Origin: Candidatus Poribacteria bacterium
GTDB taxonomy: Bacteria; Poribacteria; WGA-4E; WGA-3G
DNA length: 40,611 nt
NCBI GenBank assembly: GCA_022822275.1
Contig: JAJEBZ010000196.1
Coordinates: 1-40,611, forward strand
Direction of reading: 5' to 3'
The position numbers were made by a program, and so were the translations under genes. Every line of letters begins with the position of its first letter. Within the stretch, counting starts at the first letter, position 1. Below the pieces are notes generated by a model. That model saw nothing but the letters and a program-made list of their open reading frames with translations, did no database searches and had not been told where the DNA came from. Of the stretch, positions 7,361 to 10,032 are shown one piece after another.

Positions 7361-7828
7361 ATGTCAAATGAGAGTAGACGCTCTTTTTTGCAAATTGCTT
7401 CTGCTTGCCTCGGCGGGTTATTAAGTTTAGCTGCTGGCATTCCACTGATAGGTTTCGCAATCTCACCAGCATGGAAAAAAGGCGAATCCCAGTGGGTTGA
7501 CTTGGGGTTAGTAGACCGTCTCAAAGACAGTCGATTTAAAAAGGTCAATTTTACGTTCACAGCAAAGGATGGTTGGGTCAAAGCAACGAAGAAACGTTCT
7601 GTTTATGTGACCGATCTCGGGAATGGAGAGTGGAGCGTGTTTTCCAGGACATGTTCACATCTCGGTTGCCTCGTACGTTGGGACGAAAATAAAGAATCGT
7701 TCCTTTGTCCTTGCCACGGTGCTGTATTTGATAAGGACGGCGCAGTCGTTGAAGGTCCTCCGCCAGAACCATTGCAGAAACTTGAAGTCAAAGTAGAAGC
7801 GGGTGTATTGTATGTGAAGGAGGCGTAA
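7361..7828 (+). CDS. Rieske [2Fe-2S] protein of a bc/b6f-type complex, Tat-exported
   Basis: A 155-residue Rieske subunit that would pass electrons from quinol to a c-type cytochrome at the outer face of the membrane. Cluster ligands are C98 and H100 (CSHLGC) and C116 and H119 (CPCHG). C103 and C118 can form the stabilising disulfide. The N-terminus carries a twin-arginine signal, SRRSFLQ, followed by a hydrophobic anchor (about residues 11-35), so the folded cluster protein is exported by Tat and stays anchored. AAGGAG lies 7 nt before the ATG. The next gene, cytochrome b, starts at the base right after the stop codon, so the two are co-translated. No cytochrome c1 or f gene follows. Confidence 0.96.
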   Translation: MSNESRRSFLQIASACLGGLLSLAAGIPLIGFAISPAWKKGESQWVDLGLVDRLKDSRFKKVNFTFTAKDGWVKATKKRSVYVTDLGNGEWSVFSRTCSHLGCLVRWDENKESFLCPCHGAVFDKDGAVVEGPPPEPLQKLEVKVEAGVLYVKEA

Positions 7829-9031
7829 GTGAAACAGTTTCTAAATGAACGACTTCCGTTAGATGGGGTGATGTCACATCTACGCAAACCGTTGCCGAAA
7901 CACATTAACCTGCTATTTTCGTTAGGTAGTTTGGCGATGTTTCTGCTGTTACTGCAAGCAGCGACGGGGGCATTCTTAGCATTGTCCTATTCACCATCTC
8001 CAGAACATGCACATAATGCAGTCCAGTATATCTCAAATGAAGTGCCTTTTGGAAAATTTGTGCGTGGTTTGCATCATTGGGGTGCAAGTGCAATGGTCAT
8101 CATTGTCTTTTTGCACCTGCTCCGGGTTGTGCTTTATGGGTCATATAAAAAACCGCGTGAACTCACGTGGGTAGTCGGTGTCTTTCTGCTATTGGTTGTA
8201 CTCGGGTTTGGATTTACGGGTTATCTGCTACCGTGGGACGAAAAGGCATATTGGGCAACGGTCGTAGGCGTGGAAATAGCGAGTACTGCCCCCGTGCTGG
8301 GAGATTTCGTTGCAAAAGTGCTACGAGGTGGTTCAGAAATTGGTGCAGTGACCCTCTCACGATTCTACGCTCTTCATACAATCTGGTTGCCTTGGTTAGC
8401 CTTCGGTTTAGTCGGTGTTCATCTTTTCTTGGTCAGATATTACGGGTCTTCTGGTACAACGAAGAACACACCTGAAGATATGAAAACAGGAAAACCATTT
8501 TTTCCGGATCAGGTATTTGAGGACGTTGTCGGAATGTTGATCCTTTTCGTCATCCTTGCCTGCGCTGCCCTATTTGTCCCAGTACCGCTTGAAGATGTAG
8601 CAGACCCAACAAATGCAGATTACGATCCACGTCCGGAATGGTACTTTCTGTTCCTGTTTCAATTGTTGAAATACTTTCAAGGTCCATTTGAAATTCTTGG
8701 GACTTTTGTCATTCCAACACTCGGTATGTTGTTATTGCTGTTCCTACCTTTCTTAGACAGAAAAGAGCGTGAAGTCCTTTGGAAACGTCCTATCGCCTTG
8801 ACAGTAACAAGTGTCTGTGTAATTGGAATAGTGGGGTTGACAATACTTGGTGCAAAATCACCGAAGCTTGAAACGCAAAACATAACACCCACTGAAAATG
8901 GAACACAACAAGGTAGTCCAACTGATCAAGCGGAAGAGGAGGATGTGTTTGATTTTCAGCTAACAGAAGAAGAATTAGAAACAGAAGATGACGTGTTTGA
9001 TTTTCAATTAACGGAAGAGGAATTGCAATAA
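7829..9031 (+). CDS. Cytochrome b (fused b6/IV type) with duplicated acidic tail
   Basis: A 400-residue quinol-oxidising cytochrome b that spans the membrane. The GTG start has AAGGAGG 6 nt upstream, inside the end of the Rieske gene. Haem ligands are H82/H96 (HHWGASAMVIIVFLH) and H183/H198 (LHTIWLPWLAFGLVGVH). The 15-residue step in the second pair is the b6-type spacing. PEWY (269-272) is the Qo-site motif of the subunit IV half, so both halves are in one chain. There is no Cys in the first helix where b6 proteins attach an extra c-type haem. The C-terminal 30 residues are unusual: DVFDFQLTEEEL occurs twice (372-383 and 388-399). The gene ends 5 bp from the end of ftsY, which runs the other way. 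Confidence 0.95.
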   Translation: MKQFLNERLPLDGVMSHLRKPLPKHINLLFSLGSLAMFLLLLQAATGAFLALSYSPSPEHAHNAVQYISNEVPFGKFVRGLHHWGASAMVIIVFLHLLRVVLYGSYKKPRELTWVVGVFLLLVVLGFGFTGYLLPWDEKAYWATVVGVEIASTAPVLGDFVAKVLRGGSEIGAVTLSRFYALHTIWLPWLAFGLVGVHLFLVRYYGSSGTTKNTPEDMKTGKPFFPDQVFEDVVGMLILFVILACAALFVPVPLEDVADPTNADYDPRPEWYFLFLFQLLKYFQGPFEILGTFVIPTLGMLLLLFLPFLDRKEREVLWKRPIALTVTSVCVIGIVGLTILGAKSPKLETQNITPTENGTQQGSPTDQAEEEDVFDFQLTEEELETEDDVFDFQLTEEELQ

Positions 9032-9036
9032 GTTAC

Positions 9037-10032
9037 TTAAACTTCTGCTGATTCTTCTGTTGTAAAGAGTGCATCAACGAAATCTTCAGCGGCGAAATCA
9101 CGTAAATCATCAAGTTTCTCACCGATGCCAATAAGTTTGACAGGTGCACCAAGTTCTGCTTTGACAGCAAGGACAATGCCGCCTTTTGCTGTTCCATCCA
9201 GTTTTGTCACTGTGACCCCCGTTATTGGCACTGCTTCGTTGAATACCTTTGCTTGTATCAACGCATTCTGTCCGACTGTGCCGTCAATGACAAGTAGAAC
9301 TTCATGGGGAGCCCCTTCATGTGCTTGCCCCATCACCCGTCCGATTTTAGAGAGTTCATCCATCAAAGGTTTTTTGGTGTGGAGCCTACCAGCAGTGTCC
9401 ACAATTAGGACATCAACATCCCGGTTTTTTGCTGCATGGACTGCATCATAAACGACTGAAGCGGGTTCTGCCCCTTCTCCACCCCGAATTAAATCCGCAC
9501 CTGCCCTTTCACACCAAATAGCCAATTGGTCTTCGGCAGCGGCGCGGAACGTATCCCCCGCAGCAACAAGAACCCGTTTGCCATCCGTTTTGAAACGGCT
9601 TGCAAGTTTACCGATAGTTGTAGTTTTACCAGCACCGTTCACACCAAGTACTAAAATTGTATAGGGAGAATCACTATCAAGTTTTAGCGGAATATCTTCA
9701 CCGAGTAAGTTCAGAATTTCATCTTTGATGACTACACCGAGTTCAGAGGAATCACCCAAACCTTTTGTTTTGACAGTCTCTCTGACATTATCCATGAGTG
9801 TCAGAGTGGTTTCTATTCCTACATCTGCTTGGATGAGTATTTCTTCAATCTCTTCCATGAGTTCTTCGTCAATCTTTCTTCCGACGCGTAGCAGGCTTGA
9901 CAGTTGAGAGACAAACTGGTTCCGAGTTTTTGCTAAACTGGACTTTAGACGATTAAACCAACTCTCTTTTTCTGTTGTATCCTTTGGTTCAGCTGGTTTC
10001 TTTTCACCACCTTTGAATAGGTTTCTGAGCAT
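9037..10032 (-). CDS. ftsY: Signal recognition particle receptor FtsY
   Basis: A 331-residue SRP receptor GTPase that docks ribosome-nascent-chain complexes carrying SRP at the membrane translocon. The short N-terminal part (residues 1-45, charged) is followed by the N domain and then the NG GTPase. Motifs are G1 GVNGAGKTT (130-138), DTAGR (212-216), TKLDG (276-280) and the closing GIGEKLDDL (302-310). The highly acidic A domain of enterobacterial FtsY is absent, as in many phyla; membrane contact probably uses the N-terminal helix MLRNLFKGG. AGGAG lies 6 nt before the ATG. No ffh or smc gene is beside it. Confidence 0.97.
   Translation of the reverse strand: MLRNLFKGGEKKPAEPKDTTEKESWFNRLKSSLAKTRNQFVSQLSSLLRVGRKIDEELMEEIEEILIQADVGIETTLTLMDNVRETVKTKGLGDSSELGVVIKDEILNLLGEDIPLKLDSDSPYTILVLGVNGAGKTTTIGKLASRFKTDGKRVLVAAGDTFRAAAEDQLAIWCERAGADLIRGGEGAEPASVVYDAVHAAKNRDVDVLIVDTAGRLHTKKPLMDELSKIGRVMGQAHEGAPHEVLLVIDGTVGQNALIQAKVFNEAVPITGVTVTKLDGTAKGGIVLAVKAELGAPVKLIGIGEKLDDLRDFAAEDFVDALFTTEESAEV

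Follow-up and report, generated by a model that had tools for sequence, protein, structure and literature searches.

A conserved C-terminal motif of poribacterial cytochrome b as a candidate docking site for a redox partner other than cytochrome c

Results

The Rieske-cytochrome b locus and its terminal repeat

The window (the whole stretch of DNA analysed, 40,611 nucleotides) comes from a Candidatus Poribacteria MAG of 4.5 Mb in 320 contigs, and the named relatives nearest to its cytochrome b are likewise Candidatus Poribacteria. A Rieske gene and a cytochrome b gene lie together in it (Table 1), with the stop codon of the former (7828) immediately abutting the start codon of the latter (7829). 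The translated Rieske protein contains the CxH and CxxH cluster motifs, present as CSHLGC and CPCHG. In cytochrome b, the b6-type and subunit IV-type halves are joined in a single chain, and the PEWY Qo motif is present and invariant across 31 aligned rows. With PF00033, PF00032 and PEWY in one protein and the cluster motifs in the adjacent Rieske protein, the two core subunits mark the poribacterial system as a Rieske/cytochrome b complex.

Hydropathy analysis of cytochrome b revealed seven peaks, corresponding to seven helices, the last of which ends at about residue 340. The acidic linker that follows is helix-free in the AF2 model of the protein, a poor model (mean pLDDT 45) that served only to check the plausibility of seven helices and an unstructured tail. 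Behind cytochrome b, an FtsY-like gene (named by eye) occupies positions 9037-10032 on the other strand; in 41 of the 53 loci compared, a DNA methyltransferase-like protein of ~450 aa (by eye) is encoded instead, mostly right behind cytochrome b.

Table 1. Features of the locus and the separate P330 gene of the same genome
Feature	Position	Strand	Evidence
Rieske [2Fe-2S] protein, 155 aa, twin-arginine-like N-terminus	7361..7828	+	Pfam PF00355, E 2.7e-11
Cytochrome b, 400 aa, GTG start	7829..9031	+	PF00033 (3.2e-53), PF13631, PF00032 (3.7e-10)
Variable acidic linker, residues 345-371, probably periplasmic	8861..8941	+	pN/pS 0.41, n=49 family members
Motif copy 1, DVFDFQLTEEEL	8942..8977	+	Sequence and translation
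Motif copy 2, DVFDFQLTEEEL	8990..9025	+	Sequence and translation
P330, ~330 residues, signal-peptide-like start, predicted secreted	G000:C297:4718-5692		

A preliminary description of this DNA had reported that a 12-residue peptide occurs twice at the C-terminus of cytochrome b, with six silent differences between its coding copies, and our analysis reproduced this. Both copies lie within the last 29 residues of the ORF, with a start-to-start distance of 48 nt, and all six differences between the 36-mers are synonymous. By the Nei-Gojobori method, this amounts to 6 differences over ~6.3 synonymous sites and 0 over ~29.7 nonsynonymous sites. When six substitutions were placed at random in 200,000 trials, the peptide stayed intact in a proportion of 5e-6 with no transition bias and 1.6e-4 with a bias of 3.

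The motif is conserved while the linker and the copy number vary

We then surveyed 96 cytochrome b ORFs, which gave 62 distinct rows; 61 of these were alignable at the C-terminus, and the remaining one (L047, frame broken) offered no anchor. The core VF[DE][FL] was retained in 59 of the 61 distinct poribacterial tails, with the linker drifting. The full motif occurred once in 41 tails and twice in 17, and one further tail ends in VFDFN. Doubled motifs are spaced 19 residues apart in 14 tails and 15 apart in two; in the window the spacing is 16. The two exceptions (L036/L087 and L037/L101) form one clade (support 97/96).

The pN/pS values were computed over 49 of the 61 rows, namely the family f1 tails with the motif (L036-L046 and L048, 12 rows, were left out). 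The ratio was 0.20 in the cytochrome b core, 0.41 in the linker and 0.067 in motif copy 1, and it was 0.028 in copy 2, which 17 of the 49 members possess. The V, F, F and L of the motif were invariant in all 49. A ratio of 0.03-0.07 against 0.41 in the adjoining linker indicates that the motif is under strong purifying selection, in agreement with the earlier suggestion that the peptide is selected. Its accompanying proposal that the duplication is not brand new also held: the nearest relative, with 98% core identity, has a single motif copy that is closer to copy 2 of the window (two sites off) than to copy 1 (five sites off; both counted by eye). A single copy there is as expected from loss of a unit in that relative. 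On the tree, six changes of the two-copy state are needed, at least four of them forced by starred branches.

Neutral expansion of an acidic low-complexity tail would fit these copy-number changes and the drift of the linker; the low pN/pS of the motif and its four invariant residues already disfavour it, and we regard it as extremely improbable. These findings indicate that selection keeps the motif, and that the duplication is a recurrent, dispensable and minor variation, its copy number flipping among relatives.

The tail position is taken by cytochrome or cytochrome-like domains in some relatives

In the established topology of cytochrome b, the PEWY loop lies on the outer side. Seven helices with this loop outside place the tail in the periplasm, where a redox partner would dock, and we infer this location for the tail; it agrees with the c-haem domain that relatives in Nitrospira and Manganitrophus carry behind the same helix. 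In the nearest non-poribacterial cytochromes b, a fused cytochrome c was found at the tail position in 15 of 28 loci by script and in two more, L106 and L107, which the script called split for want of its PE[WFY]YF pattern and which both carry a C-terminal CAGCH.

The two exceptional poribacterial tails bear ~115 extra residues, a fused domain, in place of the motif. Relatives without the tail, which had been put forward as grounds for rejecting selection on the peptide, thus exist in this one clade only, and a cytochrome-like domain stands there instead. The fused domain contains no CxxCH and was not identified by Pfam or phmmer alone. It is 44-72% identical to the C-domains of a separate protein, P330, in other genomes, and 64% identical to the one in the genome of the window (G000). 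Searching 20 chosen genomes with the fused domain gave matches in 19, both fused genomes included, and the matches were mostly the C-terminal part of this separate ~330-residue protein. The fused clade itself retains separate P330 copies. Homologous cytochromes b fill the tail position in three ways: with a fused cytochrome c in other phyla, with a fused b562-like domain in one poribacterial clade, or with a linear motif. Most simply explained, the motif would serve to recruit a redox partner without covalent attachment.

P330 combines an FMN_bind-like domain with a predicted b562-like domain

The N-domain of P330 matched FMN_bind (PF04205) in the own-genome copy with E 1.1e-5 and 26.4 bits against a gathering score of 22, and in the G037 copy with 18.4 bits, below this cut-off. 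With a 22-sequence profile it also matched RnfG of a solved Rnf complex (7zc6) at E 0.018. The profile alignment places GATITS of RnfG, which we take to be the flavinylated Thr motif, against GQEEAS in P330, where the motif is not kept.

For the C-domain we used an AF2 model made from four sequences, with a mean pLDDT of 56 overall and of 63-93 in ten-residue blocks over residues 211-310. The C-domain of the model aligned with cytochrome b562 (256b) at a VIA-align Z of 12.7 and an rmsd of 2.0 over 100 residues, and its top match was the Kuenenia structure 6r6n (13.2), with b562 and c' entries making up most of the list; for helical bundles, a Z under ~13 can be a common arrangement. Foldseek and VIA-align on this model predicted a four-helix bundle of b562 topology, a prediction to which the same caution on helical bundles applies. 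By end offsets, Met215 and His309 of the model fall on Met7 and His102 of b562, presumably its haem ligands, and neither residue varies in any of the 39 distinct P330 and fused sequences. This coincidence of invariant Met and His with the ligand places raises confidence in the b562-like reading. Pfam returned no match for the C-domain up to E 10, and no b562 family. We conclude that P330 is predicted to consist of an FMN_bind/RnfG-like N-domain and a b562-like C-domain that may hold a haem. The C-domain is acidic, with a median net charge of -9, and the N-domain is close to neutral (-11 to +11); charge therefore gives no account of why an acidic tail would be attracted.

P330 co-occurs with cytochrome b and in part adjoins its genes

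P330 was present in 66 of the 72 genomes of the order, two of them (G065 and G066) with broken or split copies, and cytochrome b of this type in 64 of 72, a count of genomes only part of which had their tails read. Both genes occurred together in 61 of 72 and neither in three, all of family f3; this absence is that of one lineage, and co-occurrence among related genomes represents few independent events. Three genomes had cytochrome b without P330 (G030, G047 and G063) and five had P330 without cytochrome b (G007, G008, G028, G070 and G077); these eight genomes with one partner only possibly reflect MAG gaps. G007, G008 and G028 were also without a matching Rieske gene, so that a missing contig or loss of the pair would explain the absent cytochrome b.

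P330 lies directly upstream of Rieske-cytochrome b in four genomes (G035, G037, G048 and, at L108, G038). It adjoins the Rieske gene in G043 and G045, where no Rieske match stands beside cytochrome b, and it is located away from Rieske-cytochrome b in all five f1 neighbourhoods read (G000, G007, G010, G019 and G023). Taken together, the fusion, the linkage in operons and the co-occurrence point to P330 as the candidate partner.

Several further genes were observed around P330. A Tat-exported multicopper oxidase, a possible electron acceptor, is encoded beside the P330-Rieske pair of G043 (L225:7130-9685). Family f1 has two genes upstream of P330 (L221:2994-4649), one for a small, secreted-looking protein that contains Cys and one for a YtkA-like protein (match slightly below the cut-off), an arrangement common to G000, G007, G010 and G019. 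In the region L229/L103 (G048:C711), genes for a second cytochrome b fragment, for a porin-like protein and for a diverged paralogue of P330 that lacks the b562 part are followed, all in a row, by P330-Rieske-cytochrome b.

A similar motif in the porin-like c-haem protein of P330 neighbourhoods

The gene that follows P330 in four of the five f1 neighbourhoods encodes a protein of 507-552 residues. It has a single CNVCH and an acidic linker, and its C-terminal part is porin-like by eye. Full or long matches to it were found in 25 of 59 genomes; in G023, a short match right behind P330 (G023:C1:2292972-2293100) is apparently a decayed relic. A similar [VI]F[SD]F was present in the linker of all 25 of these proteins (V in 19 and I in 6, F in 25, S in 24 and D in 1, F in 25), amid residues that are acidic and varying. 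That a c-haem protein neighbouring P330 has a similar motif suggests that the two motifs share a ligand.

We also assessed how specific the motif is, with at least 8 acidic residues required in the surroundings of [VI]F[DSE][FL]; this criterion was chosen once the motif was known. Among 1,429 non-cytochrome b ORFs of 53 loci, the acidic-context motif gave one match, the porin-like protein in L103. Over ~291 kb (the window together with respiratory and P330 regions of its own genome and of relatives), it occurred only in cytochrome b and the porin-like protein. The bare VFDFxL pattern, counted as DNA, was not enriched in the own genome, with 7 matches (2 of them the tail) against 9 in the reversed control. 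On inspection of the tails and the presence list, no link was seen between the number of motif copies and whether a genome has the porin-like protein.

Two further explanations were weighed. The tail might serve structure or assembly by folding back on the Rieske/cytochrome b complex itself, with no contact to a separate carrier; it is invariably part of the cytochrome b chain, and a domain in cis can stand in for it, both of which would suit this role. The linker, however, is long and variable, and the similar motif in a second, unrelated protein also speaks against this improbable explanation. A quality-control or proteolysis tag for a periplasmic protease or chaperone would agree with the C-terminal location and with a hydrophobic core within an acidic tail. 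We consider such a tag very unlikely, because many relatives have further residues behind the motif and the porin-like protein has its motif in an internal linker.

Small cytochromes c are encoded with a second bc complex

The cytochrome b ORF contains no CxxCH. Across 53 loci, 716 ORFs lie within 3 kb of cytochrome b, and nine of them have CxxCH; by eye, two (L056 and L081) resemble genuine haem proteins, the other seven being HNH-like or antisense frames, so no cytochrome c gene is shared near Rieske-cytochrome b. In a canonical bc complex, a c-haem is encoded alongside, either as a fused domain or as a separate subunit; cytochrome b of the window has no such domain, and the 53 loci share no c-haem gene within 3 kb.

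The own genome, G010 and G043 encode monohaem cytochromes of 109-124 residues alongside a second bc complex. They are acidic, with net charges of -5 to -10. In the own genome (G000:C151, L273 and L274, and G000:C120, L275), the second cytochrome b is split into frames of 277 and 291 aa, close to a cytochrome with eight CxxCH and to other c-type cytochromes. The own-genome COX1 lies on a different contig, but the one-contig genome G010 has COX1 in the same region as the second bc complex.

The tail could dock a c-type cytochrome, for example the ~120-residue monohaem cytochrome, and its position, which is that of the fused cytochrome c in relatives, as well as the existence of these small proteins would favour this. 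However, the small cytochromes belong to a different bc complex and are acidic themselves, no cytochrome c gene is shared near cytochrome b, and the domain that replaces the tail lacks CxxCH; we therefore regard a c-type partner as unlikely, though still a rival. The preliminary description had proposed a docking motif for a missing cytochrome c or another partner. The probable periplasmic location suits a redox partner, and that partner is probably not cytochrome c.

Discussion

Rieske/cytochrome b complexes usually pass electrons to c-type cytochromes, and some archaea use copper proteins or b-type ectodomains. We propose, with a probability of roughly 45%, that the poribacterial tail is a flexible periplasmic arm whose motif docks a non-c-type redox partner, most likely P330. 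The Rieske/cytochrome b complex that bears this acidic arm would have no cytochrome c subunit encoded alongside. Docking would fall to the VF[DE][FL] core as a short linear motif, of which one copy or two would suffice, and the linker would merely supply reach. P330, as the most likely ligand, would exchange electrons with the Rieske head, and it may also meet the porin-like c-haem protein through the similar motif. The periplasmic side, the binding, the haem in P330 and the electron flow with its direction are all parts that we infer.

A more far-reaching and quite speculative possibility, which we think unlikely, is that one flavin/b562-type shuttle protein is bound by [VI]F[DS]F arms of two kinds, those of the inner-membrane Rieske/cytochrome b complex and those of a c-haem porin in the outer membrane; a bc-type complex would then work without cytochrome c and could exchange electrons with the cell exterior.

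If docking of P330 is true, recruitment of a bacterial flavin/b562-type partner through a linear motif would add to the ways in which cytochrome c can be replaced, and uncultivated sponge symbionts would gain a testable respiratory branch. Among the titles and abstract openings returned by a literature search, none described such a Rieske/cytochrome b/FMN_bind system in Poribacteria.

Several known systems can be compared. In archaeal Rieske-cytochrome b systems, a b-type ectodomain (CbsA of Sulfolobus) or halocyanin replaces cytochrome c1. They likewise have a non-c-type redox partner on the outer side, whereas the poribacterial partner would be a bacterial protein, predicted to be b562-like and FMN_bind-like, and is accompanied by a putative docking motif. 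P330 resembles RnfG, NqrC and other FMN_bind proteins in its N-domain, through the matches to PF04205 and to RnfG; it differs from them in lacking the flavinylated Thr motif and in having a b562-like second domain. Cyc2-type fused cytochrome-porins (PMC8406198) share with the poribacterial protein one c-haem motif before a long C-terminal part, which is porin-like by eye in the latter. The long acidic linker with [VI]FSF that parts the two regions sets the poribacterial protein apart, and the likeness seen is one of layout.

The Nitrospira/Manganitrophus-type complexes, in which cytochrome c is fused to cytochrome b, have a homologous cytochrome b whose extension begins behind the same last helix. 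In contrast, the poribacterial extension is a short motif on a linker, with no CxxCH domain and no shared cytochrome c gene nearby. If our reading is true, homologous proteins would have the same position occupied in three ways: by a motif that binds non-covalently, by a fused b562-like domain or by a cytochrome c fused to the chain.
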